From Corynebacterium fournieri (lineage in GTDB: Bacteria; Actinomycetota; Actinomycetes; Mycobacteriales; Mycobacteriaceae), in NCBI RefSeq assembly GCF_030408775.1, contig NZ_CP047210.1, forward strand, positions 2,294,001 to 2,358,000: a DNA stretch of 64,000 bases, read 5' to 3'. The position numbers were made by a program, and so were the translations under genes. Below the pieces are notes generated by a model that was given only the letters and a program-made list of their open reading frames with translations, ran no database searches and was not told the origin of the DNA. Positions 34,929 to 56,458 of the stretch are shown piece by piece. Each line of letters opens with the position of its first letter. Position 1 is the first letter of the stretch.

Positions 34929-36623
34929 TTAGGACAAATCCCACTCCCGCGCCAGAGTCCCCACCAGATATTTCTGACGGTCGGCTATAACTTCAGGTGT
35001 CCACACGGGTTCCTTCAGCACTTGCGTGGTGAGCGCGAATACCGCCACTCCCTGATCAGAGGTGAAGTATTTGTCCTTCTTCACGGCGAAGTCGTAGTTT
35101 TGTGCTCGAGAATTGGAACGGCGGTTAAGCAGCAGCAAGTTGCCTAAGCGGTGCGTCCACTGCTCCGCGTCCTCCTCGGAGAAGTCTCGCGTCCATTGAC
35201 TCTCCTGCGGAGGGGTCTGGGGGAGTACATGCTCGACAGTGATGATGCGGTGGTCGTATGACGCGCCTGGGTCCTGGGCGAGTACCGAATCGAGTCGCAG
35301 CAAAACATACTTGCGCACGCGGGTTGCCAGGTAAAGCTCACCGTCGATGCGGTCGAGCGTCTCTCTTCGCTCGGCATCGGTGAGCTCGAATGCGTCCGCT
35401 TGGAGGCCGTCACCCTCGACGAGCTGTTTCAGCAGCTCCATGTAGCGCTGCTGGCGTGGAGTGGCATAGACCCGCCGCAGCAGCATACTTGCCGCCAATC
35501 GTTCGAGTTTGGCCATGAATTGCACCAGGAATTCGACGTCTTCGCCGTGCTCTTTGAGTGCCCACAAGGCTGGCGGGCGCCAGTCGTCGTTATCAAGCTG
35601 GTCCAACCGCTTCAGCCAGTTGTTCAATTCCTCCCACCGCGGGTCGTCACCGTGAAAGTCTTGTGCGAGCATGCGGATATCCGCTTTCGCGTACGGCTCG
35701 AGCACCTCGCGGATGAAGCCTTTCCCATTGTCGGGCAAGTATGCATTGAGCACTTGGTCCGGAAACTCTTGCAGCAGCCCCTTTACGGCGCGAGTACGGG
35801 ACTTTATGGCGCGGATGTACAAGATCAGGTCACCGAACTCCTTGCGCCCGAGTTCCTCTTCGAGGTTCTCCCACACCTCAGCATGCTGCTGCTTCTCATG
35901 TTCAGCAATCGCGCCCACCACCTGGGATTTGAAGATGTCCTGGGGAGAGAGCGGCAGGCCCCTGGCATTCATCACTGAGAAGATCCGGTACGCGCTATTC
36001 AGGTCCGGTGTTGACACCGTCACGAGGTACGCGCGACCTCCAATGAGTTTGAACAGCTGAGTCAACTGCTCTTGATCCCACCCGGTAAGTTCCTCATGCA
36101 GAGCCCGTGCGTTGTTGCGGATTTTCTTTTGGGAATCGGTCTCAGGAGCGTTGTCGCTCAGACCGATGAGCTCCTGAGTTGCACCAGCCGTTTGCACATA
36201 ATCATGAAAGAACCGTGTGTCTCGGGGTCTAATGCGCAGACGCGGTTTAGATGGGACGTTGTCCCATTCCAACGCTTCGGTCTCAATGAGCTTATGGATT
36301 GACTGCTGCAAGCTCTGGTTGTCGACGAGATCACGCAATAGCGCCAGAAGAATCGTCAACGTTGTGAGTCGTTGCTGCCCGTCAATGACCTCAGAGCGTG
36401 GATTACCTGGGGCTTTGACCAACACAATCGAGCCGAGGAAGTACGGCTCCTCCGTGTCACGCTCCAGTGCACCAGACAAATCAGACAACAGCTGGAGAGA
36501 TTCCTCGACGCCCCAGGCGTATGGGCGCTGGTACTCCGGAATCTCGAATTCGTGATCGCCGGAATGAAAGAGCTTGCCTACGCTGATCTCTTTCGCTTCG
36601 ATCCGGTTGAGTTCACCCGACAC
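34929..36623 (-). CDS. DUF262/DUF1524 protein (GmrSD-like restriction nuclease)
   Basis: 564 residues from the GTG at 36623, which has AGAGGAG seven bases upstream. The N-terminal DUF262 domain shows PEYQRPYAWG, YFLGSIVLVKA and VIDGQQRLTTLTILLALL, the DGQQR motif of this NTPase/nuclease family. The C-terminal DUF1524 has the HNH-type EHVLPQTP near residue 464, then HRLGNLLLLNRRSNSRAQN. Such fused proteins include the type IV, modification-dependent GmrSD that cuts DNA with glucosylated hydroxymethylcytosine. It lies at the downstream end of the defence locus, 70 bp after the UvrD-type helicase, on the same strand. Confidence 0.88.
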   Translation of the reverse strand: MSGELNRIEAKEISVGKLFHSGDHEFEIPEYQRPYAWGVEESLQLLSDLSGALERDTEEPYFLGSIVLVKAPGNPRSEVIDGQQRLTTLTILLALLRDLVDNQSLQQSIHKLIETEALEWDNVPSKPRLRIRPRDTRFFHDYVQTAGATQELIGLSDNAPETDSQKKIRNNARALHEELTGWDQEQLTQLFKLIGGRAYLVTVSTPDLNSAYRIFSVMNARGLPLSPQDIFKSQVVGAIAEHEKQQHAEVWENLEEELGRKEFGDLILYIRAIKSRTRAVKGLLQEFPDQVLNAYLPDNGKGFIREVLEPYAKADIRMLAQDFHGDDPRWEELNNWLKRLDQLDNDDWRPPALWALKEHGEDVEFLVQFMAKLERLAASMLLRRVYATPRQQRYMELLKQLVEGDGLQADAFELTDAERRETLDRIDGELYLATRVRKYVLLRLDSVLAQDPGASYDHRIITVEHVLPQTPPQESQWTRDFSEEDAEQWTHRLGNLLLLNRRSNSRAQNYDFAVKKDKYFTSDQGVAVFALTTQVLKEPVWTPEVIADRQKYLVGTLAREWDLS

Positions 36624-36693
36624 GCTGCCGCTCCTCTGCAATCCGTCAAGGCTCTGAACACCTACCGGCAATTGTATTAGCGCCCGAAACCCC

Positions 36694-39045
36694 CTAACCC
36701 TCCGGCAGCAGCTCCGACCGCTCGCCGACTGTGGTCACCACCAGCGCGTCGCGGGCGCGCGAGGCCGCCACGTACAGCAGCGAGCGCTCGCGTTGGAGGG
36801 CGGCGCGGGCGTCCTCCTCGGAGAGGTTCTTCAGGCGGAAGCGCAGCGGCATGATCTCTTTGCCCACGCCCATGAGGATCACGTGGGTGAATTCCATACC
36901 TTTGGCGCCGTGCATGGTCATCACGCTGACCTGCTCGTGGGAGGCGAGTTCGGCGTTTTTGGTCTGGACAGCGTCGATGCCGTGGTCGGCAAGACCAGAA
37001 ACCACGCGGGAGAGCTGCCCGCGGGTGCGGCACATCACGCCGACGCGCACTTCCTTGTTCACCCCCTCCGCGGCCTCACGCTCGGCCTCCTCCAGCCAGC
37101 CATTAATCAACGCAGCCGCAACAGAGAATTCCTCGTCCTCGGACTCGGCGGTCACGATCAGCGGCGCCGGACCGGTGCGCGCGGAGCGGTACCCGCCCAC
37201 CGAGTCGACCTCGCCCTCGCCGTCCAAGAACTCCATGTCCCCGCCGACCAGGATGCGCAGGGCGTAGTCCAGGTTCTCTTTCGTGGTGCGGTAGTTGAGC
37301 GTCAAACGCCGCGACGCACGGCCACGGGTTGAAATGCCGAAGTGCGACAGAGTCAGCGGGTTGCCGTAGATCCGCTGGTGCGAGTCCTCGGCGATGAAAA
37401 TGTCGTTCGCCCCCTTAGCAACGCACGCGCGCAAAAACCGCCAGTGCCCAGCGTTGAAGTCCTGCGCCTCATCCACAACCACGTGGTGGAACAAGGACCC
37501 GCCACCGCGCTCCACACGCACGTTGAGCATCTCCGCACCCACGGCGGACATGGTGGGCCAGAACAGCTGGCCGTCGATGGCCTGGGTTTGCATCAGCGAT
37601 TCCAGCACAGCCCACACCTGCTTGCGCTGCCTGCGGTTCAGCGGCGTGCCGCGGCCGGTGCGCGCGACCTTCAGGTACTCCGCCAGCGTGGTGATGCCGC
37701 CCGCCAGCACCACGGTTTCGTACTCGGCCTGCAAGAACGCTTCGTTGGCAATCTCGCGGGGCATGGACTCGTCGGTAGCCTCCAGCGCACCTTCCCACAC
37801 CTGGCGCGCATCCAGGTCGTTGTACGGGCGCACGCGCGGTGCGGCCACGCCAAGGACTCGCCGGGTTGCCTCCGAAATCTCCTCGGCGGTGCCGGAGGCG
37901 ACCACCTTGCGCACTACGGCGTCGATGTTGTCTATCCACACGCCGTCTTTGCCCGGCGCTTCCGCTTCCGGGTATGACGGGTTTAGCGCGTTGAGCTGGG
38001 ACTTCAATCCTTGCGCGAGACCCTTGGTAAACGTGGTCAGCAGCACGCGCGGTTTCGCCCCAGCCACGCGCCCGGTAGCCAGGTTGTTCGCCCGGTGCAC
38101 CGCCACCACCGTCTTGCCGGTGCCCGCGCCGCCGAACACGCGCGCGGAGCGTTTGTACGACGCCTCCGCCATGCGGCGCTGCTCCGGGTGGATGTACACG
38201 CGCCATTGGTCGAAGTTGCCGGACTCGATCACGCTGCGCAGCGACTCGGTCTCCACGTCGTCCACGTACGCGAACTCCAGCTCGGCCGCGGCCTGGCGCA
38301 GACCGGCGAGCAGCCGCGCGTCCTCGGGCTCCGCGGCCTCCGCAGCAGACACCTTGCGCAGCCCCAGCGAGTCGCGCGTCTCCGCCACCGAATACCCCGC
38401 CACCAGCGACAGCATCGCCTCGTGCTCCCACTTCGGCCGCGGCGTCAACAGCGCATCCAGCCCGTCCTCGGACTCGAGTGCCATCACCTGCTCGGTCAGC
38501 GCCGGGTCAATGCCCAGCTCCTCCCACAGCTTCTCGGGCGTCAGCTCACCCAGCACCTCGCGCGGTGCTGGCGATTGCTTCTCGGCGAGCTCCGCTTCCA
38601 CCCCCTTCTCTTTCGCAACCGCCTTCGCCTGCTGGGCCGCCAATTCGTGCGCGGCACGCGCGGCCGCCTCGGCCTTGGCGCGCGAATCAACATCCCCCGC
38701 AGCAGGCTCGTCCCTGATCAGCGTCGTAATACCGTTGATCGGGTTCACGTCCAAGCGCAGCCGCGCCGGGTCCAACCGTTCCGCCTTGAGGTTGCCCTCG
38801 TCGTGCGAGTCCACGTCCACAAGCACGAAGTGGTGCGTGTCCTGGTCGCGGATTTCAAAGAGCACCGCGCGGAACTGGTCGTTGATGCGCCCGGTGCGCA
38901 CGCGCTTGTCCACGGCGTTCGATAGCGTCTTGATCTTCAGCGACGGGTTCGTCGGGTCCGCAGAGAGCTTCTGCAGGAAGTTCATCGTCGGCTTCATCAG
39001 TGCGCCGTCGAGGTCCAACCCGCTGTACAGGCTAAACGTCACCAT
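36694..39045 (-). CDS. UvrD/Rep-type superfamily I helicase with RelE-like N-terminal domain
   Basis: 783 residues from the ATG at 39045; AAGGAG precedes it and only 4 bp separate it from the giant helicase stop. Walker A is GGAGTGKTVVAVHRANNL near residue 308; the DEAQ box is VVDEAQDFNAGHW near 520; MTMHGAKGMEFTHVILMGVG near 713 and LLYVAASRARDALVV are late SF1 motifs. Residues ~35-90 (RTGRINDQFRAVLFEIRDQD, then HHFVLVDVDSHDE) resemble the ParE/RelE fold that sits in front of some UvrD-like proteins. Role in the locus: unwinding or processing foreign DNA with the DruE-like partner (inference). Confidence 0.88.
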   Translation of the reverse strand: MVTFSLYSGLDLDGALMKPTMNFLQKLSADPTNPSLKIKTLSNAVDKRVRTGRINDQFRAVLFEIRDQDTHHFVLVDVDSHDEGNLKAERLDPARLRLDVNPINGITTLIRDEPAAGDVDSRAKAEAAARAAHELAAQQAKAVAKEKGVEAELAEKQSPAPREVLGELTPEKLWEELGIDPALTEQVMALESEDGLDALLTPRPKWEHEAMLSLVAGYSVAETRDSLGLRKVSAAEAAEPEDARLLAGLRQAAAELEFAYVDDVETESLRSVIESGNFDQWRVYIHPEQRRMAEASYKRSARVFGGAGTGKTVVAVHRANNLATGRVAGAKPRVLLTTFTKGLAQGLKSQLNALNPSYPEAEAPGKDGVWIDNIDAVVRKVVASGTAEEISEATRRVLGVAAPRVRPYNDLDARQVWEGALEATDESMPREIANEAFLQAEYETVVLAGGITTLAEYLKVARTGRGTPLNRRQRKQVWAVLESLMQTQAIDGQLFWPTMSAVGAEMLNVRVERGGGSLFHHVVVDEAQDFNAGHWRFLRACVAKGANDIFIAEDSHQRIYGNPLTLSHFGISTRGRASRRLTLNYRTTKENLDYALRILVGGDMEFLDGEGEVDSVGGYRSARTGPAPLIVTAESEDEEFSVAAALINGWLEEAEREAAEGVNKEVRVGVMCRTRGQLSRVVSGLADHGIDAVQTKNAELASHEQVSVMTMHGAKGMEFTHVILMGVGKEIMPLRFRLKNLSEEDARAALQRERSLLYVAASRARDALVVTTVGERSELLPEG

Positions 39046-39049
39046 GGTG

Positions 39050-42000
39050 TTACTCCTTACCCAGCAGCGCGGCCGGGATCGTCTCAGCCGAGAGTGTATC
39101 GGGGTACAGCAGCGTCCAGCCTTGCTCGCGAAGCTTGGCTTCGGCACCCGCGTAGGAGGCGTCCTGCTCGATCAACAGCGCGATGCGCAGCTCGGTCCAG
39201 GACACGGCGGTGGGGATGGATCCGACTTCTTCGCCAATTTCTTTGGTGGGTGCTGCGCCGGCGTGGACAAGAGTGCGCAGCGCCGCCAGCACCTCGGATT
39301 CGTCCTCGAACTCCTCGATCGCCTCGGCCCACAGCCCACTCACCGCGGTCTCCACGGCACTTTGCTTCGCGACGTCCTCCGGTTCCTCACCGGAGACCCT
39401 TTCCCCGTCACCAACGTCGACCGTGACGGTGTTGTTTGCCAGCCACATGATGTTGGCAAAGCGCAGGAAGTCGCGCCAGTTGTCGTCGGTGATGGAACCG
39501 GGCGAAAGCGCGTTGACGCACAGCCGCTGCGGAACCAACTCGTTGTTGATGGCTGCGGCCTCCAAGTGGATCTCGTTGCGGAACGTCAACCGAGCGCCAC
39601 CGGGGATACGCGAGGGCACCACGGAGGTGCTGAGCATGTTCAACAGGGCTTTATCCATGAGCGCGTACGAGGACCGTTCCGGCTCCGCCAGGTAGGTCAG
39701 CAGCTGCGTGATGGGGGAGGCTTTCAAAAACTCGATCTCGTTGTTACCGATGCCCTCCATGGCGCGCGTGCGCTTCTCCGCTTTCTCGCTGACCCACGCC
39801 GGCTGGGCTTCACCGAATTGCATCTCCTTGGCAAACCAGTCCAGGCCGGCGTCGGTGACGTTCCACGGCAACACCTGTTTCTCGGCGAAGTGCAAGCTGT
39901 TGCGCTTGCGTATGTCGCTGGGGAAGCGGTAGTGCTGCGCACTGAAGTGGAACGCGGCACCGTCGGTGTAGACCGCCACCGGGCGCAGCGGACTGCCGCG
40001 GTGCTGGAACAGGAAGTCCGGGCGCGTGTAGCCGTAGTCCACCTGCTCGCGCATGGACCACTCCTCGCCGGAGGCGAACGTGATGTGCCACTCCACACCG
40101 CCACTGTTGGGGATGTCCTTGACCGTGGCATTGCGGGCCTCGAGCGCGTCACGCACCATCTCGCGGAAGCGCACCTCCAGGTTGGAGGCGTGGTCCAGCT
40201 TCGGGGCTTCCGTCTTCCACTCCCACTGCACCGCCAGCGGATCCAGGTCTGGTGCGGGGTGATCCTGGTCGCTCAGGATGGCACGCAGCGCGCGCTCGGC
40301 GGCGGCGCGGGAGGTGACCTCGATGTGCGGGGTAAGGGTGTACGGCAGCAGGCAGTCGGGGCACGCGAGGCGCTCATCGGCTGCGCAGTCGCAGTCCCGG
40401 ACCTTGATAAAGGCGCGCTCGAGGAGCTTGCGCACGTCTTCAGGTTCGGCGAACTGCGAGAGATACCCGGTGCCGCCCGGAACATTGTCGTGCATGAGCA
40501 GTGCTTCCACCGTCTTGCCGGTGGCGTCCGGCACGCGCACGGTAACCACGTTGAGGTGGTCCGGGTCGCCACCAAGGACTTCCTTGAATCCCAGCTTGAT
40601 CGCGGCAGTCAGGCTCGGGATGGTGGCGTTGTCGCCGGCGGTCAGCTGCACCGGCACGTGCAGCAGCACACCCTGGGTTTGCAGCGTGCGGTTCAGCGCC
40701 ACCGTGACAGATTCTTCCTCGCGGGCGTTGCGCTTTGGACACCACGGCCGGTGGTCCCACTTGGAGTTCGCGCCCGCCTGCGAGTCCAGGTGGCCGCAGT
40801 AGTTGCACACGGTGAACAGGGGAGCGTCCACCTCTTTGCCCGCCAGCATCTTCTTCGTAGCGGGGCCGCGGCCCAGGTTGAACCAGCTGAGGTTCACGTA
40901 CCGCAAATACTTTGCGCCGAAGCCGTGGGAGAGGAACCATTCCCCGCCATGGCCAACCTCCGGCACGGCGAAGCTCAATGCGGTGTGGAAGAACATGGTG
41001 AAGCGGTCTTCGTGTGAGCCGTCGATGGTTGCGCGCGCACGGTCCACCTCTGCGGAGACGCGGCGCATGCGCACCGTTTCCAGGATCTGGCCTTTGTCCG
41101 CGAACGCGCCCGCGCCGCACTCCGGGCACGCACGCGGTACAACACCGGCCTCGATCTTTTCGCCGTAGGAGCACTCCGGGCACAGACGCCACTGCTCCAC
41201 ATCCGCACCACCCGCGCCGAGCTCAACGGCGTCCACCTTGGCTGCGATGCCGCGGGCGTAGAACGTGTTGCCCGGCGCGAGTTCCGTCAGCGCCGACGAC
41301 ACGCCGCGGGAGAGCTCGAAGGTCTCCGGGTCGATCTGCATGGACGACGGGTTGAGTTGGGAAACCACCACCGCCAGCTCCACGGAGTCATCCAACAGCG
41401 TGAAGTTGGGCAGCAGCCCGTAGCGCTCCATGGAGCTGATCCAGAACTCGTCGAGCAGGATGTCGTTGTAGTCGCGCCCGACGCGCCGCCATGCCGCTTT
41501 GGTGCTGCGCTTTTCCCGCTCCAGCTCCGGGTCGGCGTCCTCGGTGCCCGCGTTGGGGTCCACCTTGGCCTCGAGTTCTTTCACCCGGTCGGCGAGTGTG
41601 TCCCACCGTGTCTTCAGCTCGGATTTTTCGGCCTCCCATAATTGGCGGGTGCGCTCGAGCTCGCCGCGCAGCGAGTCCGTGCCTTGGCCGCAGGCCCACT
41701 CGCGCACGCCTTCGACGGTGGCGGCGTCGACGTGCCCGCCTGCCACCGTGGCCAAGAACGCGTCCACGCGCTCATCCACCCCGGCCGCGATCTCTTCGCC
41801 GAGCACCTCCACCAGCGACCGCTTGCGGCTGCTAAACACGTCTTGCGCGTGCGCCACCTCCAGCCCGTTCGCGGCAAACGCCATGGTGTCCACCAGGTAC
41901 GCGGTGGTCTGCCTGCGCAGGATCTCGGTGGCGGAGAGGAACACCGCCGGCGGCGTCACCGCCCCCGCGATCACGGACAGCGGTTGGTTCAGCTTCGGCA

Positions 42001-45000
42001 GCATCGTGCCGCGGCCTTGCACGAACGCGAGCACCAGCGAGTTGCCGGTCAGGCGCCCGGCGCGGCCCACGCGCTGCACGTACGAGGACACAGACGTAGG
42101 CAGCGAAGCGAGCATGACGGTGGACAGGTCGCCGATGTCGATGCCCATCTCCAGCGTCGGCGTTGCCACCAGCACGTTCGGCGCGTTCGGCGCTTCGTCG
42201 CCGGTACCGCGGAACGCCCGCTCGAGCGCCAGCCGCTCCTCCTTGGGGATCAGGCCGGTGTGCTCGCGCGCCACCACCGCGCGTGGGGTGGTGGAGGTGT
42301 ACAGCCGCGAGTAGTAGTTCTGCTCAATGCTTTCCGTCTCAAGCTCGCCGAGGCAGCCGGGCGTCGGGCACGGCAGCCCGGTGAGCAGGGAGCGGGTTTG
42401 CTTGTCGACGCCCAGGGGTCCCCGGCACACCCCACAGTGCACCATTGCTGCGTCGTCCTCGTGGCGGACAACCACGCTCTCCGGCGCAAGCGCGTAGATG
42501 GTGCCGCCGGAATTGGTGGACACCGCTTGGATCGCCCCTTCGCGGGCGAGCACCTTGAACACGGTGGTGAGCACGTTGGTGGCGTCGTGGGTGGAGATCC
42601 CCAGCACTTTCGACGTCCACCGCGCGTACCTACCGCGCGGGCTGCCCAGGGGAGTGATCCCACGGTCCTTGTCGTCCAACGCGGCGCCTGAGCGCGGGAA
42701 CTCCGGCGCTCCGCCCTTGGGAAAGCTGGGCATGCCGTGGGACTTGGCGTAGCGGTTGTGCAGGCGCCAGGAGTTCGCGTCGTGTTGCAGGTAGGTCTTC
42801 AACATCGGCGAGTACACGCCACCGCGGTCGCGCACCTGCTCCAACAGACCCCGCAGCCAACGCAGCCGCAGCGCCGGCGAACCGGCGTCGGCGACCTCGA
42901 ACAGGGCCTCATCCACATGCTGCAGCGCCTCCTCGGCCGCTGCCAACAGGACCGCATCATCCACCTGCACCGACGGCACCAGCGTGCCAGTGGAGACCAG
43001 CGAGCGCGGCAGGTGCGCACGCTGCCCGAACTCGAGCGCCGCATCCAGCTCCAGGCGGTGCAGCGCAGCAGTGGTGGCCTCTCGACGGGCTGCGGTATCA
43101 GCGTCCTTCGCCCAAAACGGCGTGAACGTGGTGGTCTCCGCCACCTCCGGCGGCAGCAACTCGAAGCGCGCACGCGCCGGGTCCGCGGCCTCATCCGCGC
43201 GCGCGAGGATCCGCAGCGGCATCTGGGCAAGCGACACCTCGTCGTCGCCGACGACGCTGCGCATGAGCGTACGGATGCCGAACGCGCGCGCCCTGGACTG
43301 CACGAAGCCAGCGCGGTGCGCCGCGTCCTGCACGGAGTCCGCGAACACCAGCGTCTTCTTCTCGTTCTGTTCCAGCGACGGCATGCCGAACAGGTTGGAC
43401 AGGCCCACCGACAACAACGTGGCCACGCGCGAGCCGATGTAGCGGATGGCATCCGCCTCGCCGCACGACGGGCACGTCTGCTCGCGCGCGTACTCCTCGG
43501 CGTTGAGCCCCGTGTACGTGAGCACCGGCACGGAGCGGCCCTCGGCGAGGTCTTCCTCGGTGGGCTCGGGGCGCGACAGCATGCTGGATTCCGGGTGGAA
43601 CCACATCAGGGCGCGCTGGCCGTCTTCGTCGCCGAGCTGGGTCAGTTCCAGGTGGTTTTTTACTGCTTCGCGGTGTTCGGCTGTGGCGTCGATAAGCGGG
43701 CGCACAAGCTCCGGCTTTTCAATGCTCGCGCGGCGAATCTCCGAGCCATTGAGCACCACCGCATCCGTGCCGGGCTCGAGTGCCGTCATCCACCCGGCGC
43801 GACCGCATGAGCGGCAGTACGTGGCCGGCAGCCACACCCCGGCATCGTCGCCGCCGAGCTGGCCGTCGTCCGCGAACCGGAACACCTCGCCGTCCTCGGT
43901 GGGTGTCACGGCACGTTCGATGCGGGAGACCTCTCGCACCCACAAGTGCGTTTCCACACCCGGCAGGCGCTTGCCGCCGAAGCCGTACGCCTTGCCCGCA
44001 AGCGCACGCAGCTGCGCCACGGCGGTGAGCAGGTGGGTGACGAACTCGCGCGTGGTGGTTTCTCCAAGACTGCGCACCACAATCGGGTCGAACATGGCCT
44101 CCGGCAGCGACTTGTCACCCTCGGCCTCACGCCGGATCAAGGACTTCGCCGGGTTGGCCTGCTCCAGCAGCTTCTCAGTCAGCGGGTGCACCGCGTACGC
44201 GGCGATGGTGGTCTTCAGGTCCGCGCCGGCGTCCACGCCCCACAGTTGCGTGCGGAACACGTCCAGCACCACATCGGCGTGGTCGCGACCGGAGTCGTCG
44301 CTGGCAATCGCGTCCACGATGCCGCGCAACTGATCAATGTCGGGGGAGAGGGCAGCGGTGTGCGCGCCGAACGTCTGCGCGATCTCGTCGGTCCACTCCG
44401 TATACGTCAACGTCTTTTCGCCCACCAGCGCTTCCGGCGTGAACGTCTCGCCGAAGATGGTCTGGGCGAAGTCGAGCACCTTCTGCGTGTCGTTCTTGCC
44501 GCCGAGCGTTGCCGAGGTCGCCACCGGCGTGACCCGCCCCAGCGGGTTCGAGGCGAACTCGCCGGCGAAGCCTTCCGGTTGGTGCTGCTTGAGCATGAGC
44601 CCTAATCGACGCAGCAGCAACGCCACGTCCGTACCCTGCGCGCCGTCGTAGGTGTGGAACTCATCCAACACCAGGTACTGCAACGAGGTTGCCGAGCGCT
44701 TCCAGATCTCCCGGTTATCCTCACGCAGCAACAGCTGGTCCAGCATCTTGTAGTTGGTGAGCAGGATGTCCGGCGGGTCCTGGCGGATCTGGTCACGGTC
44801 ATTGATCAACGAATCCTTGGTGACCTTCTTCACGCTCCCCGTCGCCTCACCCGTGAAGATCCCGGCAGTGACACCGGCGAGCGCAGGCTCGTTGGTAATC
44901 AGCTTGGCCAGACGGTCCGCCTGGTCATTCGCCAGCGCGTTCATCGGGTACAGCAGCAGCGCCTTGGTGCCGCGCTGCCCCTCAGCGCGAGCCCGCGCGG

Positions 45001-46832: not shown

Positions 46833-47083
46833 GCTTGTTCTTTCTCCTTAAACAGGCTTCCATCAGGGAGTAGAGAGCTTACAAGGACACGATTCGATCG
46901 TGGGGATTTTTCGGGTATCAGGTCTTCGAGGGCAGCTTAATTCTCCCAATTCGAATGGTGGAATCCCAGTCCACGAGGTAAGCGCTTTTTGTTTACAAAC
47001 TTCCTTCCCAGTCACACCATTTCTTTGGGGCACTGTAGAGGGTCGTTGATTTGACGACGATAGAACAATGGCAAACCCCATCT

Positions 47084-47983: not shown

Positions 47984-48648
47984 CGTTGACACTTCCTTAA
48001 CATGACCCGTTGTATTTCTCTCGATGATTGATCATCTGTTACGTGTGATCTTCCATGAAGGATCATCCGGTTGCGAAGTAGCAGCACTAGATTGGGCCGG
48101 TCCCAGCGGAACTCTGTGACCTCTTCAGGTGGGGGAGCCGAGAAACGCTGTACAAGCTTCGTCGCGAAATGGTCCACTGGGCTCATGCAACTCGGATCAA
48201 AGCGCAGACGACCATCGAGGCCATAGGCGGAAGCAAGCCACACTTCTCTTCCACTCCGGACCGCAAACATACCGCGCGCTTCATCGAAAGGTACTGTCCG
48301 CGGTCGCCACATTCTTGTAGGCACTGAGCTCGGATTTTTTGACCAAAGCAGTACTATATCTGGAACGTTTCGAAGGTGGGCGCCGTCCGTATGGAGCGGC
48401 TGTTCCCCGTATCCAAATCTGGAACTAATAGAGTTCGAAGGAGCTTCGTGCTGGAGCATCGGTCTTAGGGTATCCACCTTCCCTTGTCCCACGCGATTGG
48501 CAACCAACTCGAAGTCACTATGTTGAGCTAAATAACTACTTAGCCCGCTCAATCGAATCGAACTCGCCTGCCCCACGCTCCACCCCTTTTCAGCAGATTC
48601 GCTGAGCATGCGCCCGAAGTTGAAAGACTCGCATGTACCCAAATTCAC
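47980..48648 (-). CDS. TauD-like Fe(II)/2-oxoglutarate dioxygenase fold protein
   Basis: About 222 residues. The frame extends to a GTG at 48687 without ribosome site, whereas AGGAGG at 48653-48658 favours a GTG at 48648 or a TTG at 48642. The metal facial triad is recognisable: His and Asp in EQPLHTDGAHLRNVPDI, and a distal His in RMILHGRSHVTDD, followed by the 2-oxoglutarate-binding Arg in SREIQRVMLRK. This matches the TauD/TfdA-like jelly-roll layout. Substrate unknown. Its presence between a DNA methyltransferase and a HEPN-like gene is unusual for phage-defence loci. Low GC. Confidence 0.6.
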   Translation of the reverse strand: MNLGTCESFNFGRMLSESAEKGWSVGQASSIRLSGLSSYLAQHSDFELVANRVGQGKVDTLRPMLQHEAPSNSISSRFGYGEQPLHTDGAHLRNVPDIVLLWSKNPSSVPTRMWRPRTVPFDEARGMFAVRSGREVWLASAYGLDGRLRFDPSCMSPVDHFATKLVQRFSAPPPEEVTEFRWDRPNLVLLLRNRMILHGRSHVTDDQSSREIQRVMLRKCQR

Positions 48649-48773
48649 CACGCCTCCTGAAATGAAATGTCGCGAGCCATACACCACATTTGCTGGTTCT
48701 ACTCACCCTCGGCAGAAGTATGTTATCCGTTGTAATCGGTACTTTCTCAAACTCGATTTGGAATTCGATCCCA

Positions 48774-49025
48774 TCAACCTCTCAAACTCTTGTACGCCTC
48801 CCGCATATCCGCCTCCCGGTCCAGCTGCCTAAACGGGTACTCGTACACGTACTCCACACCCGACTGCGGATGCGTCCACGTCCGATCCGCCACCGACAAC
48901 TCCGCGCCGTACTTCAACTTCGCGTCCGCCTTCACAATCTCCTTCGGCACCTTCCGACCATTCGCATCAAACCGATCCTCCTGGTCATAACGCCGCATCA
49001 CCGGAAACTGCGTCCGGTAAATCAC
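48774..49025 (-). pseudogene. Leftover 3' end of a second DNA methyltransferase allele
   Basis: The 83 residues align end to end with the last 83 residues of the adjacent methyltransferase, roughly half of them identical: RTQFPV, DANGRKVP, GAELSVADRTWTHPQSG and YPFR match ETQFPV, DANGRQVP, GAELSSSDRTWVHPQSG and LPFR. It starts just past the stop of the intact gene and has no ribosome site of its own. Its GC is high, like the methyltransferase N-terminal half, unlike the low-GC C-terminal half of the present gene. It is therefore best read as the old gene end, left behind when the C-terminal part was replaced. Confidence 0.75.
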
Positions 49026-49044
49026 GCACGGCTAAAAGGTCTGC

Positions 49045-52000
49045 TTACGCTTCTGCAAATTTCCACCACGCTTTTTCCAGGTCTTCGCTTCGATTCATTA
49101 CTCGGAATGGCAACTCGAATACGTAAGTAGTGCCCGACTGAGGATGAACCCAGGTTCTGTCAGATGAACTTAATTCGGCCCCAGTGATAGATCCGCTCCG
49201 CTTCAATACCTCTGGCGGCACTTGCCTGCCATTAGCATCCAACACGATTCTGTTGTCAGCTCTCTTTTGGACGGGAAACTGAGTTTCATAGAGCGCAACA
49301 AGATCAGAACTTGTCAACCCCAGTTTATGCGCCATGATGGCATCAATTTCATTCTGAGCCCTGTACCTATCGCTGGCCTTTCGAAATGGAGTGTCATATT
49401 GCCACTCTTCCCCCGTCATTTGAAGCCACAACGGAGCGTAAGCGTCTGTGAGTGCGTTTAGCCGCAAGAATAGGCCACCCATGATCTTGTCGAGCTTTGC
49501 ATCTTGAACGAATGGGAGTGACAAGACGGAGGAAGGGTAGAGGTTTGAATACCCAGCTGAGCGAACGATGAAATCCATTGCCAAAGTGCTCAGATTAGCT
49601 GCAGCCACTAGGTCTTCATAACGCCGTACCGGGCCGACGCTTTGAATCCCATTAATGTGGGCAGCATCAGGCGGCAGGATAGCTACAAATAGTGACCTTG
49701 CATTCTTAACCTGGGCCATTAATCGCCAAGAAATTCGGTAGCAATCGAGAACTGGAATTGTCGAACCAGAAGCGGCGTCTTTCCAACTTCCATAACTCTC
49801 CCGCGTCACGTCTAATGAACGCGCATATTCCGAGTTCGGAACGGCGTTATGTTCAAGAGCCTCGAGATCAATATCGACATATTTCGCGGCACCGCTAACC
49901 GCCACGCACTCTTGCGCCATTGGCAGTCCGATTCTGATTTGCCGCCCTTTCATGACCACCTGATTCCAAGCGTCCGCCTTACCGCTCCTTCGATAGTCGA
50001 AGACGCCTTTGCGCCTGTCGACGGATTCATCCCATCCTCGCGATGACTGAAGACCCAACGTGGTCATAGAAGGAAAACCCGTATAAGCGGAGAGCAATTC
50101 TTGCGAAAGCTTGTTTACTGAATAGACGATGCGAGCCTCACGAGGTGTCGACTCTTCGTCCTGCCAGAACGAATTCCAGGCTTCCAACACTTTGAGGTCA
50201 ACCGTATTGATCCTCGACCGATGGGGCGAGAGGTCCCATTCGCCGTCATCTGTCTTAAAGCCAGGCTGGGGTCCACTTCCATCATGGGAGAGTGAGGCCA
50301 GTGCGGTACGCGGATGATACAGAGACGATGCATTTAGAAAATTAGGGCTATCTTGCATTTGCGCCGAAACATTGACGCTAAAAGTCTGCTTACTGTCCGG
50401 CCCCTCGAACAACGGAAGACGGTTCTCGAACTGCCAGTGGCGCCTCAGACGTAAGTATGCTGCGCGCCGTAGCGACGCAGCCTTCTTTTCAGTGAAGTGG
50501 GATTCGGGATGGATCAGGGAGGTGACCCCGCGCACCCTTTCGTTACGCCAGGTCCGCTCTATAAACCCGCGGTACAAATCCGGCTGTTGCCCGATGAGGT
50601 GCGGATACCGGGTCACATCGGTAAGCACCGCAGATGTCGCTACTGACTCGCCGAGGCCTCGATAGACCACCTCACGCGTCTGTTCATCCTCGTTCCATCT
50701 CTCCCGACGCGCCTTCTTCTCCGCCTGCGTCGGCTTGTGAGCGAGGGAGAACCAGGGATCGGCCTCTGAGTACAACGCGTCTAGATCGGTTCGAGGCCGC
50801 ACCCACGGCGGGTTGCCCACCTGCAGGTCAAAGCCGCCGCGAGCGAAGACGGCCGCGAAGTCCAAGTCCCAGTGGAAGAAACCCTGGTCGGCGGCGACGG
50901 ACTGCACCACGCGCAGCCACCGGTGGTTCTCCAGCACGGTCTCGATCTTGCGGGCACCGGAAAGGCCAATCTCGGTGCGCTCAAGCTCGACCAGTTCGTC
51001 CCAGGTGTTGGCGCTGGCAAGGCGGATCTGGCTAGTGTCGCGGGCTTGGGTATCCACGCCAAGGACGTCGGTAAGCGTGGCGAGCCACTCATCGAGGTCG
51101 GGGAGGGCATCCACCTCGGTAAGCGGCCAGAAGGTCAGGGCGTTCCAGGCGTCCATGATGAGACGCAGTCTGAGGTAGGCGCCCTCGACGTCGTGAAGCA
51201 GCTCACGCTCGACCTGCTCGCGGCGCACATTCTTCGAGTTTCGCTCCGGGATTAAACCCCACAGGTCGATGTCGCGGAGAATCTGGTCTTCGGCAATGCG
51301 CATTTTGGACAGGGTGATGGTCCAGAGCGTCTCCACGCGAGTGGCGAGGTTGGTTAGCTTCTTCGCCTGCTCCTTTGTGGGTGCCTTGCCGGTGACGGAT
51401 TTCTTCCACGCCTTCATGGCCTTGACCTCGTCGGCGGCCAGCTTCTTCAGGTCCTTGGCGTCCGCTGCCGCACCCCAGGTGGCGGATGGCAGGAGGAACT
51501 GGTGGATGCGGCCAGCGGCGTAGGTGTCACGGGTCTCGCCGGCATCGATGGCAGCTGCGAGGTTTTGCACCGGCTCGCGGCGGGGGACCGCGGAAAGCCA
51601 CTCGCGTTTCTTCAACTGCGCAACTGCGTAGGTGGAACGCAGCGCACCGATGAGCGAGTTGCCGCGACGCAGGTGCAGGCCGAACCACGGGGCCTTGAGC
51701 TGCGGGGTCATAGTGTCCAGCCACAGGGAGATCTCCGCGAGCTCCACGGCGGTAGGGTTCAAGTCCACGCCGTAAACCTGGTGCAGGGCGATGTGCGCTT
51801 TGATCCTTTGTAGCTCCACCGCGCGTTTCTCCGGGTCCACCTGCGTGTCCAGCTCGTCCTCACGCAGCTTGAGGTAGAGCTCCGCGAGCTGGCGCACAGC
51901 CTCCACAGCGAAGGCGCCGGAGCCCATGGCGGGCTCGCAGATGGTCAAGCTGAGCACGTCCTCGGCAGCTTCGATGCGGCCTTCCTCCTGCAGGACCTCG

Positions 52001-53598
52001 ATGGCCTGGCCGACGGTGAACTCCGTGAGCACCTGCGGGGTGTAAAAGGACGCGGAACGCTCCCGGTCGCGGCTGGACTGGCGGAACACAAACGAGCCAG
52101 CCGGGTGGAGGCGGCGCGTCTTGGCGGTGCCGCCTTCCTCCATCTGCTTGGTCTCCATGACAAAGCTGTCCTGCGGGACCGTGTCCGCGGCACCTGTGGG
52201 CAGGACCCAGGAGCCCTTGGAGGCATCGCCCTTCGGCGCGACCTCGTACAGGTCTTCCTGGGCGATGAAGCCGTGGTAGGACATCAAGCCCTCGTAGACC
52301 TGGCCCAGCTCCGTTACACCAAGGGTGGCGTAGGAGATGAAGCCGCGGTCCTTGCCGGCGGAGACCTTGGACAGCAGCAGGTTCTGCAGCACGTTGGTCA
52401 GGGCGGCGTTGGAGAGCCTGACTTCGTCGATAAGCCAGGTGGCTTCGCGCTTGAACAGGTCGGCCTCCAGGTTGCGGAAGGTCAGGCCCTGGTTCTGCGC
52501 GTCCTCGTCGGCGTCTGCGGTCTCCAGCGGGTCGTGGCCGTCGTTGACCTGGGTGAACAGCAGCTGCAGCGAGTCATACAGGTGGGTACCCCGGCGCGCC
52601 TGGTCCGTCACTGGGGGAGTGAGGATGTGATCGCGCAGGCGGTCCAGACCGTAGCCAGCCACGTACTCGGGTGTGCCGGTGGGCAGGATGGCCAGTTCCG
52701 GGGAGGCTTCTGCGAACAGCAGGAAGAGGATGCGGTAGAGGTAGCGCAGGGACTGGTGCGCCAGCTCGTTGCCATCGACTCCGTCGATGGGGAGGTGCTG
52801 CTCCCGGCGGCGGTTAAGCACGTCGTTGCCGATGATCTCGATGGATTCGCGCACCGCGTCGCGCAGGTCGCCGGAGACTTTCACCGCGTGCTGCTGGGAT
52901 TCCTCGCGGGTGTCCGCCCACCAGGTGGTGCCGTCAGCGGCGCGCTCCAGGTTCTCGCGTGCGAGGATGACGGCCACGCGCTCGAGCTCGCCGGCCTTCT
53001 TCGTGTCATTACGCTCCACCGCCAACTGCAGGTTCACGGCCAGGTAGCGGCCCAGCGGCCAGGATTCGCGCTCCGCAAGCAGCGCCCACGGGCCCGCGAG
53101 GACCACGATGAACTCCGGCGGCTCGGCGGCGAGGAAGAGGTCTCCCACCAGCTTGGACACCTTGGCTTTCTCCGGGTCCTTGCCTTCTGCGGCGACGCCG
53201 CCGACAACGGGCAGGGAGGTCAGGTCCTCCTCAGTGGTGTCCTCGCTCGGCTCGGCGCTGATGACCACCAGGGTGCCCGCGTTGCCCACACAGCCCTGGT
53301 AGGTGAACGTGTCCCCGGCGCGGGTGTAGCGCTGCTCCGCCGGTGTGCCGTAGCTGAACGCGGTGCGCACCAGGGCGTCGGTTTCATTTTGCGTCGCAAA
53401 GCCCTTTTGCAACTCGCCGCGCTCGGCTTGGAACCGCTTGACGGGGGAGAGGGTTCCCGTTTCCTCCTCCAGCTGCGCCCATTCCTTCGTGCGGGCCTTC
53501 ACGCGTTTGGTAAAGGACTCGCCTTTGGTCTCGTCGGTGGTGAAGTAGTGGTCGCTGATCCACTCGTCGACGTTGATGATTGAGTCGTAGCTAGCCAT
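49045..53598 (-). CDS. Large N6-adenine DNA methyltransferase (DISARM DrmMI/Eco57I-type)
   Basis: 1517 residues from ATG 53598, four bases after the SNF2 stop with AAGGAG upstream. SAM-binding motif I is CEPAMGSGAFAVEAV near residue 559, and motif IV is VGNPPWV near 928, defining an amino-methyltransferase. The N-terminal ~500 residues are a family-specific extension (SLRYLYRILFLLFAEASPEL), and the C-terminal ~585 residues should hold the target recognition domain. The base composition drops sharply from about 50.8 kb downward, close to the NPPW motif, indicating a mosaic gene. In the locus it would mark self DNA. Confidence 0.88.
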   Translation of the reverse strand: MASYDSIINVDEWISDHYFTTDETKGESFTKRVKARTKEWAQLEEETGTLSPVKRFQAERGELQKGFATQNETDALVRTAFSYGTPAEQRYTRAGDTFTYQGCVGNAGTLVVISAEPSEDTTEEDLTSLPVVGGVAAEGKDPEKAKVSKLVGDLFLAAEPPEFIVVLAGPWALLAERESWPLGRYLAVNLQLAVERNDTKKAGELERVAVILARENLERAADGTTWWADTREESQQHAVKVSGDLRDAVRESIEIIGNDVLNRRREQHLPIDGVDGNELAHQSLRYLYRILFLLFAEASPELAILPTGTPEYVAGYGLDRLRDHILTPPVTDQARRGTHLYDSLQLLFTQVNDGHDPLETADADEDAQNQGLTFRNLEADLFKREATWLIDEVRLSNAALTNVLQNLLLSKVSAGKDRGFISYATLGVTELGQVYEGLMSYHGFIAQEDLYEVAPKGDASKGSWVLPTGAADTVPQDSFVMETKQMEEGGTAKTRRLHPAGSFVFRQSSRDRERSASFYTPQVLTEFTVGQAIEVLQEEGRIEAAEDVLSLTICEPAMGSGAFAVEAVRQLAELYLKLREDELDTQVDPEKRAVELQRIKAHIALHQVYGVDLNPTAVELAEISLWLDTMTPQLKAPWFGLHLRRGNSLIGALRSTYAVAQLKKREWLSAVPRREPVQNLAAAIDAGETRDTYAAGRIHQFLLPSATWGAAADAKDLKKLAADEVKAMKAWKKSVTGKAPTKEQAKKLTNLATRVETLWTITLSKMRIAEDQILRDIDLWGLIPERNSKNVRREQVERELLHDVEGAYLRLRLIMDAWNALTFWPLTEVDALPDLDEWLATLTDVLGVDTQARDTSQIRLASANTWDELVELERTEIGLSGARKIETVLENHRWLRVVQSVAADQGFFHWDLDFAAVFARGGFDLQVGNPPWVRPRTDLDALYSEADPWFSLAHKPTQAEKKARRERWNEDEQTREVVYRGLGESVATSAVLTDVTRYPHLIGQQPDLYRGFIERTWRNERVRGVTSLIHPESHFTEKKAASLRRAAYLRLRRHWQFENRLPLFEGPDSKQTFSVNVSAQMQDSPNFLNASSLYHPRTALASLSHDGSGPQPGFKTDDGEWDLSPHRSRINTVDLKVLEAWNSFWQDEESTPREARIVYSVNKLSQELLSAYTGFPSMTTLGLQSSRGWDESVDRRKGVFDYRRSGKADAWNQVVMKGRQIRIGLPMAQECVAVSGAAKYVDIDLEALEHNAVPNSEYARSLDVTRESYGSWKDAASGSTIPVLDCYRISWRLMAQVKNARSLFVAILPPDAAHINGIQSVGPVRRYEDLVAAANLSTLAMDFIVRSAGYSNLYPSSVLSLPFVQDAKLDKIMGGLFLRLNALTDAYAPLWLQMTGEEWQYDTPFRKASDRYRAQNEIDAIMAHKLGLTSSDLVALYETQFPVQKRADNRIVLDANGRQVPPEVLKRSGSITGAELSSSDRTWVHPQSGTTYVFELPFRVMNRSEDLEKAWWKFAEA

Positions 53599-53602
53599 TG
53601 AT

Positions 53603-56458
53603 CTACTGCTCCTTCGGCAGGACGAGTACGAGGGGGCGGATAAGTTCACGGTCCGGTTCAAGCGAGGCGATCAGCGCGCGTTCCTCCGCAATGAGGTTTT
53701 CAGACCGGCCCACGCGCAGCATGGTCTGGCTGTCGTCCTTGGCGTGCTGCCAGCGGTCCGCGCGGTCGATCCAGTACTCGATGCGGCTGGTGGCGTGATT
53801 GCGGGCGGCGGCCATCATCGGCTGCAGCTGGTTGCCCGCCACCTCAACGGAGGAGGCCACGAGCTCCTGGGCGTTGTCCGGCAGGGTCAGTGTCTCCGGG
53901 TTGATGGCGTGCTCCGTCAGACCGATGCCGCGCAGCCACGCCACCGGGTCCTCGATGGTCTTGGGCAGCATGCCGCCGGCGACGGTGACAAAGGCGCGGG
54001 AGACCACCTGGCCGCGCTTGTTGGTCAGCGTGGCCATGAGCAGCACGGTGGGCATGTCCACCTCGCCCGCGATGGCGGTGATCTGGCCGGCGGAAAGGGA
54101 GGCGAGTGCGCGATCCGTCGCCCAATCCGTCACCGGGTGCAACGGGCCGAGGAAGTGCGCCTTCGGCCACGTGGAGCCGTCCTGGCCGGTGCGCGCGTTG
54201 CGCAGGACGGTGTTGCCCACGGCGGTGTTGGTAGCCAGGAGGAAATTCTCCCGCACCTTGCGGTCCGCTAGGTAGTCCTGCGGCAGGATGTCCAGGCGGC
54301 GGCGCAGGTCTTCCGGGGGAGCGAGCTCCGCCACGCCGTTGTTGCCCAGCTCGTAGGCCACACCGCCCGCGCTTAAGGGCCTTTCCGGGGCGCCGTAGAA
54401 GGCCTCCTTCAGCGCGTCTTCCAGGTAGCTGATCTCCGAGGGGTACAGGCTGGTCGTGTGCGGTTGGGCTGCGCCCGGTGCCGGTTCTTCCGCAGCATCG
54501 AGCTCAAACCCGTAGCCCGCCAAGAGCGCGTCGATGAGGTCCTCCTCCGATTGCGCTTCGGTGGTGGCAACCTGCTCCGGGGTCTTCACCACATCATCGA
54601 AGCCGGCCTGGTTCTGGATAACCTTGCGGATCTCATCCTCCTCACCGCTGACGGTGTGCTTGCCAATGAGCGAGCCGACGTCGCCAAGCAACGCATGCGC
54701 CTCGTTTTCGCGGTTGATCAGCTTGGTTAGCACGTGCAGCTCGCCGACGTAACCGCCCTGCTTCGTATCCAGCAGGAGTGCAGCGATCTGCGGCGACTCC
54801 ATCTGCCCGTAGCGGTCCACGCGGCCGTTGCGCTGCTGGATGCGGATCAGCGACCACGGGATGTCGTAGTGGATCAGGTTGTGGCACAGGGTGTGCAGGT
54901 TCACGCCTTCAGACGCCACGTCGCCGGTGATCAGGATGCGCAGCTTGGAGTCTTCGCGCTTGAATTCGTCTACAAGCCGCATCTGCTCCTCGTCCGAGAG
55001 GCCGCCGTGCATGACCTCCACCGCACCGGCCGGCATCTTCAGGTCCTTGGTCAGGTTCTCTTTGAGCCAGTGCAGCGTAGCGACGCGTTCCGAGAACACC
55101 ACTGCACGCGTTTTCTTGCCCTTGCCCACGCCGATCTCCTGGAGGTAGTTCACCAGCGCGGCGTATTTGTTGGAGTTCTGGCGGGTGACCTTGGCGTTGA
55201 GCTGCGCCAGGCGCCCCAAGGCCTGGCGCTGTTTCGTGTCCGCGGCCGGGACGCGCTTGAGCCGGTTCTCGACGGTCTCGCCGAGCGCGGCGGGGGAGGA
55301 GAGGAAGGCCTTGACCAACGTCCACGGGAACAGGCGGTCCTGCGCCGGGTTGGCGTTGGTGTGGATCCAGGTCTGCTCCAGCTCGGCGGCCGCGGCGTTT
55401 TCTTCTGCGGACGCCTCCACCGGGATGTTGATCGGGTCCTTGCGCTCCGCCCACTGCTCGCCGACCACACTGGCCACCTCGTCGGAGTGGCGGTGGCGGC
55501 GGATGAGCAGGCGGGACACCGCATCCTTGTCGATGGTGCCGTCCGGCAGCACCGCCGTCGGATCCAAAAGGCGCAGAATCTCCTTGAAGCTTTCCGGGTC
55601 GCCGTTGTGTGGGGTGGCGGAGGCGAGAAGCAGCGCCTCCGTGGTGGGGGCGAGGGTGCGGGCGAGCTCGTTGTTCTGGGTGCCCACGTTGGTGGCGTTG
55701 TGGATCTCATCAATCACCACCGCGTCCCAGCGCACCTTCTCCAGCTGCGCGCGGTACTTCGGGCTCTTCAGCGTGTCCATGGACACGATCACGCGGGGGA
55801 AATACGTAAACGGGTTGCGGCTGGCCGGCAGCATCTGGCGCACGCGCTGGATGCCGGTGGAGTCCAGGCGCACCAGCGGGATGGCAAAGCGCGACCACAT
55901 CTCCTGCTGGAACTGCTCCATGATGTGCTTCGGGGTCACCACCAGGATGCGCTCGCCGCGGCCGCGGCGGATCAGCTCTGACAGGATCATGCCGATCTCG
56001 AGAGTTTTGCCCAGGCCGACAGCATCGGCGATGAGGACGCGGGGCCGAAGGTTGGCGTCGCTAAGCGCCTTGCGCACGGCGGTGAGCTGGTAATCCAGCG
56101 GATCCATGAGCATCTGATCCGCCACCGACAGCTCCTCCTGGTAGAGGGGCACCGGGATTTGGCGCAGGGTGGTCTCCAGCCACAGGCGCGTGGTGCGGTA
56201 GCCGGGGGAGCGGTCCGGCACGACCTCCACCTTGGCCGGGTCGAAGACCTCCACGTTGTCGAGCGCGGTGTAGAAGCTCGCGGTGGTGTCGCGCACATAG
56301 TCCGACAGGCCGCGGACCTTGAGCAGGTAGCCGTCGACGGACTGCGTAACGCTGGTGATCAGCCACAGCTCGTCGCGGACCTTGACCATCAGGCCCGGGG
56401 CGTAGGCGGTGGAGGTGTTCGGCGCTTGCTGTGGCGCATCCTGCGTGAGCGAAGACAT
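53603..56458 (-). CDS. SNF2-family helicase (DISARM DrmD-like)
   Basis: 951 residues. SNF2 motifs: Walker A ADAVGLGKTLEIGMILSEL near residue 146, box II VVIDEIHNATN near 250, GDVASEGVNLHTLCHNLIHY near 516 and IQQRNGRVDRYGQ near 545. The length, the N-terminal segment (VKVRDELWLITSVTQ) and direct coupling to an adenine methyltransferase match DrmD of class 1 DISARM. It would translocate on double-stranded DNA. It is the first gene of the defence transcription unit; a parS site lies 80 bp upstream. Confidence 0.88.
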   Translation of the reverse strand: MSSLTQDAPQQAPNTSTAYAPGLMVKVRDELWLITSVTQSVDGYLLKVRGLSDYVRDTTASFYTALDNVEVFDPAKVEVVPDRSPGYRTTRLWLETTLRQIPVPLYQEELSVADQMLMDPLDYQLTAVRKALSDANLRPRVLIADAVGLGKTLEIGMILSELIRRGRGERILVVTPKHIMEQFQQEMWSRFAIPLVRLDSTGIQRVRQMLPASRNPFTYFPRVIVSMDTLKSPKYRAQLEKVRWDAVVIDEIHNATNVGTQNNELARTLAPTTEALLLASATPHNGDPESFKEILRLLDPTAVLPDGTIDKDAVSRLLIRRHRHSDEVASVVGEQWAERKDPINIPVEASAEENAAAAELEQTWIHTNANPAQDRLFPWTLVKAFLSSPAALGETVENRLKRVPAADTKQRQALGRLAQLNAKVTRQNSNKYAALVNYLQEIGVGKGKKTRAVVFSERVATLHWLKENLTKDLKMPAGAVEVMHGGLSDEEQMRLVDEFKREDSKLRILITGDVASEGVNLHTLCHNLIHYDIPWSLIRIQQRNGRVDRYGQMESPQIAALLLDTKQGGYVGELHVLTKLINRENEAHALLGDVGSLIGKHTVSGEEDEIRKVIQNQAGFDDVVKTPEQVATTEAQSEEDLIDALLAGYGFELDAAEEPAPGAAQPHTTSLYPSEISYLEDALKEAFYGAPERPLSAGGVAYELGNNGVAELAPPEDLRRRLDILPQDYLADRKVRENFLLATNTAVGNTVLRNARTGQDGSTWPKAHFLGPLHPVTDWATDRALASLSAGQITAIAGEVDMPTVLLMATLTNKRGQVVSRAFVTVAGGMLPKTIEDPVAWLRGIGLTEHAINPETLTLPDNAQELVASSVEVAGNQLQPMMAAARNHATSRIEYWIDRADRWQHAKDDSQTMLRVGRSENLIAEERALIASLEPDRELIRPLVLVLPKEQ

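Follow-up and report, generated by a model that had tools for sequence, protein, structure and literature searches.

The window examined here, i.e., the whole stretch of 64,000 nucleotides that was analysed, covers positions 2294001-2358000 of the single-contig genome of Corynebacterium fournieri (2389603 bases). Ten of its minus-strand ORFs were translated and scanned for domains with PADLOC, Pfam and NCBIfam models, and the genes that a first-pass annotation had listed all proved to be real, each being a long minus-strand ORF with the expected domains. The features of the locus are as follows, L072 denoting the reference relative, whose ArmA is the most similar to that of the window:

53603..56458, minus strand: armA, SNF2/RapA/BrxHII-like helicase of 951 aa (Pfam SNF2-rel_dom and Helicase_C; RapA structures matched)
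49045..53598, minus strand: armB, PglX-like N6-adenine methyltransferase (Eco57I/MmeI-type) of 1517 aa (PADLOC REase_MTase_IIG, PDLC03611, 1797 bits; Eco57I)
49045..50429, minus strand: exchanged 3′ part of armB, running from about codon 1056 to the stop and probably encoding the recognition half (DNA comparison with L072)
48774..49028, minus strand: former armB 3′ end, a remnant behind the new stop (248 bp, 96% identical in DNA to the L072 armB end)
47980..48687, minus strand: cargo, predicted TauD-like Fe(II)/2-oxoglutarate dioxygenase of 235 aa (Pfam TauD 29.4 bits, cut-off 27)
47084..47992, minus strand: cargo, 302-aa protein recognised by its motifs, a HEPN-type RNxxLH (RNDYLH in the window) and a zinc ribbon (CxxC pairs)
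46485..46832, minus strand: cargo, 115-aa ORF without a family (ORF only)
45504..46469, minus strand: cargo, FRG-domain protein of 321 aa (Pfam FRG 68 bits; PADLOC candidate PDC-S15 191 bits)
39050..45373, minus strand: armC, YprA-like DEAD-helicase with MZB (DUF1998), 2107 aa (PADLOC, Pfam; ArmC clade)
39902..40177, minus strand: conserved PD-(D/E)xK/Vsr-like motif region of the ArmC C-terminus (conserved columns in 14 rows)
36694..39045, minus strand: armD, UvrD/GajB-like helicase with an N-terminal extension (UvrD domains; PADLOC GajB 78.8 bits)
34929..36671, minus strand: neighbouring GmrSD-type (DUF262/DUF1524) gene (GmrSD_N 127 bits and GmrSD_C 100 bits, both above the Pfam cut-offs)

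With the starts that give an ArmB of 1517 aa, an ArmC of 2107 aa and an ArmD beginning at 39045, the gaps between armA and armB and between armC and armD are 4 bp each, and the insert between armB and armC measures 3.6 kb, with a GC content of 0.51 vs. 0.65 in the arm genes. Within it, the genes for the 302-aa protein and the dioxygenase share 13 bp. The GmrSD-type gene, whose product carries the DGQQR motif, begins 22 bp behind armD and is an operon neighbour, not a conserved part of the core system. No RNA families were found at 34-58 kb of the window and no tRNA genes in the window as a whole, and the three tyrosine integrases (PF00589) of the genome all lie more than 800 kb from it in contig coordinates. 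The surroundings include a gene for a 246-aa protein upstream of armA (56561-57301, the tenth of the translated ORFs), which in L072 has a homologue of 62% identity in the equivalent position, a plus-strand DUF4357-domain gene adjoining the GmrSD gene (34266-34925), and a Schlafen AlbA_2/HATPase_c_4 gene (62042-63748), a kind listed among the BREX auxiliary effectors in PMC12839542.

Based on gene families and order, the four core genes, i.e., the SNF2, PglX-like, YprA/DUF1998 and UvrD genes, point to ARMADA type II, a system reported in a preprint by Bell et al. (September 2025, PMC12458937). Its main text describes ArmA-ArmB-ArmC-ArmD in strict order, with ArmA a BrxHII/RapA-like helicase, ArmB a PglX-like methyltransferase, ArmC a YprA-like helicase with a C-terminal Vsr-type nuclease, and ArmD a GajB-like helicase with a RelE-like N-terminus, and presents ARMADA as a link between DISARM and Druantia. 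Further features of ArmC in ARMADA type II are a BrxA-like insert, zinc modules and a coiled-coil finger. The window proteins have 37% (ArmA), 32% (ArmB), 29% (ArmC) and 30% (ArmD) identity to those of E. coli ATCC 8739, whose locus the preprint describes, in the same order, and this order is kept despite the insert between armB and armC. In a 46-row tree, built by a quick method from rows of which many are partial, the window ArmC and 17 other ArmC rows formed one clade with support 100; two of these rows are from E. coli, one is from a cyanobacterial plasmid and one from an alphaproteobacterial plasmid, and the clade stands apart from other YprA-like rows and from E. coli DruE of Druantia III, itself a long branch. 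ArmC matches at E 1e-20 were present in 35 of 396 genomes of the phylum, the window genome included, and the seven other genomes among them with an ArmC above 400 bits also held the strongest ArmB matches, with the order A-B-C-D in all seven. The order recurred on the cyanobacterial and alphaproteobacterial plasmids, and the closest relatives of the window ArmB, among the matches listed, came from Corynebacterium. The assignment to type II is based on gene order and on nearness to E. coli ArmC, type I of ARMADA not having been knowingly sampled.

The first-pass annotation had seen a composite of DISARM-1 and Druantia-like parts that matched no named system as a unit. Neither canonical system does fit, but order, families and phylogeny agree with a single named one, and the core is best read as an ordinary member of ARMADA type II, a kind already in print, with the remaining genes as cargo or neighbours. 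The FRG, HEPN-like and dioxygenase genes are variable cargo inside the ARMADA operon and not part of its core. In favour of naming the SNF2 helicase and the methyltransferase as the DrmD-DrmMI pair, the models of both match window proteins, and ARMADA, according to the main text of PMC12458937, shares its SNF2-helicase and methyltransferase families with DISARM. However, the DrmD model reached 336.9 bits against a cut-off of 610, and DrmMI scored at most 173.7 bits on a protein that another model matched with 1797. Separate DrmA, DrmB and DrmC genes, whose absence had been noted correctly, were found in none of the ten ORFs scanned by profile, and homologues of ArmC and ArmD follow in ARMADA order instead. 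A variant of class 1 DISARM, in which the giant helicase takes the place of DrmA and DrmB, is consequently very unlikely, and DISARM membership was rejected on the model scores and the missing partners.

DruE models were the best PADLOC matches of the 2107-aa protein (259.7 bits), because the matches listed included no ArmC model under that name, and the tree places the protein in the ArmC clade, apart from the long branch of E. coli DruE III even with some rows partial. In addition, the PADLOC matches listed for the scanned ORFs revealed no DruH-like gene. We therefore rejected Druantia membership on the tree and the missing partner, and a Druantia variant built on DruE has hardly any probability left. 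A third alternative, that unrelated defence genes merely came to lie side by side in an island, draws on the island-like surroundings, with GmrSD, the Schlafen-type gene and the low-GC cargo; it describes the GmrSD gene and the cargo well, but for the four core genes it is refuted by their conserved order. The co-occurrence that the first-pass annotation had proposed to look for was indeed found, the same four genes recurring in the order A-B-C-D in Actinomycetota, Cyanobacteriota and Pseudomonadota, and as an account of the whole locus a chance assembly is extremely improbable.

The catalytic parts of the ARMADA proteins are in place, as all four arm ORFs of the window are full length and carry their motifs: Walker motifs in ArmA, ArmC and ArmD, and CEPAMGSGAF and NPPW in ArmB, the latter invariant across 10 ArmB rows. 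These are the residues that matter in E. coli, where, according to the main text of PMC12458937, mutating NPPW, the Walker motifs of ArmA or ArmC, or Walker A of ArmD abolished protection, two other mutations had partial effects, and defence was non-abortive and needed all four genes. The ArmC C-terminus has a mostly conserved pattern (LExxF...Q...PDF...YTDGxxFH...D..KR, 14 rows), and profile matches to it were weak, i.e., Vsr at 0.007 in 1 of 14 rows and MTES_1575 at 5e-4 in 2 of 14, with none to the window protein and no nuclease match in a PDB search. Likewise, the ArmD N-terminus can be aligned with that of E. coli ArmD and gave weak matches to HigB-like (4e-4 in 1 of 12 rows) and ParE_like (0.011 in 2 of 12) profiles, again none of them to the window protein. 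The putative Vsr-like domain of ArmC and RelE-like domain of ArmD are based on conserved columns and on weak matches in relatives.

Comparison of the window with L072 revealed that armB has changed its 3′ end. DNA identity between the two loci is 86% over armA and over armB as far as about codon 1056, beyond which similarity is absent for 1.4 kb, and behind the armB stop of the window the sequence resembles L072 again: in translation, this remnant has 93% identity to the L072 ArmB end and 52% to the end of the window ArmB. Based on the break in identity and the 248 bp of L072-like sequence behind the stop, the 3′ end of the window armB was replaced, with about 250 bp of the former end left in place. 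Window and L072 ArmB are 88% identical over residues 200-1000 and 39% over residues 1060-1430, and the latter region was the more divergent one across 3655 locus pairs; in the 87 pairs with an ArmA identity of 0.8-0.9, the means were 0.57 for residues 1060-1430 and 0.81 for residues 200-1000. In an E. coli pair (L057/L060), the identities were 1.00 for ArmA, 0.99 for the ArmB core, 0.64 for residues 1060-1430 and 0.96 for the C-terminal end. As PMC11341690 describes the target-recognition domain of PglX as lying within its C-terminal domain, variation of ArmB residues 1060-1430 probably represents an exchange of DNA specificity. Copies of the ArmB end were found in 4 of 91 loci, all of them insert-bearing (the window, L072, L076 and the viral contig L155), and copies of the ArmC start in the slots of L071, L072, L104, L114 and L130, so that 8 of 35 slots carry an armB-end or armC-start scar.

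These scars lie where the insert lies, and the position of the insert is itself recurrent. An ArmB alignment, used as a profile on genome contigs, confirmed at least 570 relatives, of which the best 80 were kept (L071-L150, by their titles nearly all Actinomycetota), and six further loci were taken from viral contigs (L151-L156). After a duplicate (L078) was dropped, 79 genome loci were scored for junction gaps. Among these best 80 of at least 570 relatives, inserts of 0.9 kb or more occurred between armB and armC in 27 of the 74 judged loci (L077, L080, L103, L141 and L150 being left out), between armA and armB in 1 of 78 (L096), and between armC and armD in 0 of 50, with 29 unjudgeable. The armA-armB gap was nominally 0.9 kb or more in 3 of the 78, and L103 and L122 were discounted, their gaps consisting of pieces of broken arm genes. 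Fisher tests of the slot counts against the other junctions, with shared ancestry not removed from the counts, gave 4e-9 and 9e-8. The armB-armC distance was 0.9 kb or more inside the fetched locus in 19 loci and below 0.9 kb in 47 (43 below 0.3 kb, four of 0.5-0.7 kb). In 13 loci armC went unscored in the fetched stretch, and eight of these have it 9.5-29.5 kb off on the same contig. For L072, which is among the 19, the scored gap ended at a fragment of armC, whereas the true gene lies at a distance of 14.8 kb. GC content was lower than in the arm genes, by a mean of 6 points, in all 35 slots (27 long, four short, three viral and the window).

The armB-armC junction is thus a cargo slot in Actinobacteria. 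It is not a general one, since among 5426 E. coli genomes 518 matched the junction, and the 40 rows listed from these, at even steps, were uninterrupted. In seven Nocardia loci (L112, L116, L118, L119, L120, L126 and L133), armAB and armCD are separated by 8.7-29.5 kb that contain mixed genes. Five IMG/VR contigs classed as viral (L151-L155) have ARMADA II genes in the order A-B-C, three of them with an armB-armC distance of 0.9 kb or more. The slot of L072 (G408 contig 22) has a stacked-insertion look, cargo units alternating with armB-end and armC-start fragments, and contains an apparent IS21-type transposase pair.

The contents of the slots were surveyed with a simple gene caller, which yielded 299 ORFs in the 35 slots; 125 of at least 150 aa were scanned, those of the window and L118 being left out. 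The top Pfam matches were GmrSD_N, AAA_15 and AAA_21 (six each, in sets that may overlap), the top PADLOC matches AbiLi (seven) and AriA models (six), and DarT, Macro, ApeA_NTD1 and Schlafen AlbA_2 had two matches each. Genes that do not look like defence, such as DUF3558 (three) and a symporter, were found as well, mostly in the long Nocardia inserts, and part of the cargo is common to several slots, chiefly within Nocardia. The regions upstream of 30 loci served as a control: for 125 proteins encoded there, GmrSD_N and AAA_15 were absent from the 25 families listed, i.e., had at most two matches each. The flanks are also defence-rich, through other families, so only the kinds of cargo and not its richness differ. 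A precedent is provided by BREX: PMC11341690 reports BrxU in 15.98% and PARIS in 2.21% of about 2000 pglX-pglZ intervals with a known system, and PMC12839542 counts GmrSD, HEPN and Schlafen proteins and OLD-type ATPases among the auxiliary effectors of BREX loci.

It could be argued that the insert is a passenger that splits armAB from armCD and cripples the system, inserts in the slot generally being a form of decay. There are indeed broken arm genes among the relatives, i.e., ArmA in L108 and L122, ArmB in L103, and an armC in two ORFs on the Tsukamurella tyrosinosolvens plasmid L058, and the long Nocardia inserts include genes that are not obviously defence genes. The intact, motif-bearing arm ORFs of the window argue against it, however, as do the many slots with defence-type cargo of sorts also seen repeatedly in BREX loci, and we consider decay improbable, if less so than the alternatives above.

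Two of the four cargo genes of the window form a pair. The 235-aa protein is predicted to be a TauD-like 2-oxoglutarate dioxygenase: its metal ligands are HxD in seven of eight members and HxE in one, the distal His and the 2-oxoglutarate-binding Arg are present in 8/8, and the profile matches clavaminate synthase-like structures in the PDB. In the 302-aa family, RNxxLH and two CxxC pairs are invariant in 9/9 aligned members, and the motif suggests a HEPN-type protein. At E 0.01, the window member could be assigned to no family of PADLOC, NCBIfam, Pfam or PHROGs, no HEPN profile appeared at E 0.1 in the Pfam matches of the nine members and no PDB match was found; other matches of the relatives were weak and differed by member, one relative matching a PHROGs head-scaffold at 0.0018. 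All 26 plasmid records matched by the 302-aa protein, a redundant set with, e.g., four records each from P. aeruginosa and Ketogulonicigenium, have a dioxygenase match next to it, and in all eight fetched examples the dioxygenase gene precedes that of the 302-aa protein, with an overlap or almost no gap between them (the dioxygenase gene of Bradyrhizobium quebecense was unannotated and was recovered by profile). The pair is spread over plasmids of Actinomycetota and Alpha-, Beta- and Gammaproteobacteria, with AbiV, AbiH and VapBC genes as neighbours on one plasmid and TrlF on two. In the reverse test, the Shinella dioxygenase matched 44 plasmid records, of which 24 also matched the 302-aa protein; the other 20 are from Rhizobium sp. 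007 and, in 19 cases, from one or few lineages of A. tumefaciens.

Among 296 genomes searched, the 302-aa protein had four matches outside the window genome, of which the strongest had a dioxygenase neighbour by profile and the three weaker ones had none. In L212 (3266-5021), a distant relative lies behind a gene that looks by eye like an HNH nuclease, where a dioxygenase gene would be expected, and other partners are therefore conceivable for the family. The pair gave no profile match at E 1e-3 in the ARMADA loci L062-L195, the 302-aa protein had no match in phage records, and no description of a TauD/HEPN toxin-antitoxin pair was found among the open-licence PMC papers listed. The other two cargo genes do not make a demonstrable pair, since FRG is common on plasmids (288 records) and the 115-aa ORF, which has no family in PADLOC, Pfam, NCBIfam or PHROGs, has no plasmid match.

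HEPN/MNT and other type VII toxin-antitoxin pairs likewise consist of two genes, and in them a HEPN-type toxin may be under the chemical control of an enzyme. Here the partner is a 2-oxoglutarate dioxygenase, and from layout and precedent one might guess that the dioxygenase controls the 302-aa protein. The pair is compact and is a candidate defence or toxin-antitoxin module.

Taken together, the locus is with high probability an ARMADA type II anti-phage system with a cargo slot between armB and armC, a reading that builds on gene order, families, ArmC phylogeny, catalytic motifs, the position of the slot, and the recognition-half exchange with its remnant. Points against it are that, of the PADLOC models, one for a type IIG enzyme matches ArmB best, and that the window proteins themselves gave no match for the Vsr-like and RelE-like assignments. 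The mechanism we propose is as follows. The C-terminal half of ArmB would recognise a DNA motif, and ArmB would mark the host DNA by N6-adenine methylation. Unmarked incoming DNA would be blocked or degraded, without killing of the cell, by ArmA as a RapA-type translocase, ArmC as a YprA helicase with a Vsr-like nuclease, and ArmD as a UvrD helicase with a RelE-like domain, a division of labour that presumably operates in C. fournieri as well. The slot would gather back-up effectors, here the dioxygenase/HEPN-type pair and the FRG protein, as does the pglX-pglZ interval of BREX, and both cargo and recognition half may turn over by recombination around the 3′ end of armB. A bolder reading, tentative and rather doubtful, makes ARMADA II a platform whose ArmB recognition module is exchanged and whose slot gathers back-up effectors, and adds that the dioxygenase checks a HEPN-type RNase by oxidation, with infection releasing the RNase by disturbing the dioxygenase; its two-gene effector would be a new kind of system.

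The slot, the armB exchange with its remnant, and the dioxygenase/HEPN-type pair are new relative to the main text of PMC12458937. With the recognition half of ArmB exchanged, the self/non-self rule of ARMADA becomes testable by comparing methylomes between naturally occurring alleles, e.g., those of the E. coli pair whose ArmA is identical and whose recognition segments have 64% identity.

Some relatives carry further genes upstream of armA. On the Tsukamurella plasmid (L058), where 1507-6416 and 13980-20239 cover these genes and the armC in two ORFs, helicase-related and DUF1998 annotations directly upstream of armA form a putative DrmA/DrmB-like layout. Six loci (L102, L106, L127, L129, L131 and L134) have a second YprA/DruE-like gene upstream of armA, which recalls the E. 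coli Druantia-ARMADA array; five of the six were placed in the tree, where they fall in a non-ArmC group. L106 also has a second armD-like gene there (4674-6929).

Among known systems, class 1 DISARM has a SNF2-like helicase and a PglX-like methyltransferase in common with the window, which, however, has no DrmA/DrmB pair and no DrmC, and a DrmD score below the cut-off. Druantia type III also has a YprA-like giant helicase, but that of the window belongs to another clade and has no DruH-like gene among the scanned ORFs. ARMADA type II as described in PMC12458937 is alike in its four core genes, their order and families, and the ArmC clade, and the window differs by the armB-armC cargo and the exchanged armB 3′ end, neither of which is mentioned in the main text of the preprint. 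BREX type 1, in loci that have BrxU or PARIS in the pglX-pglZ interval (PMC11341690, PMC12839542), resembles the window locus in having accessory defence genes behind a PglX-type gene, and GmrSD and AriA-like ATPases recur as cargo in both BREX and the ARMADA slot; unlike BREX, the window locus has no PglZ, BrxC or BrxL, and the gene after its slot is a YprA helicase. The picture of nested auxiliary effectors drawn for BREX thereby extends to ARMADA, which suggests a common logic: back-up defences land behind the gene for a PglX-type methyltransferase.
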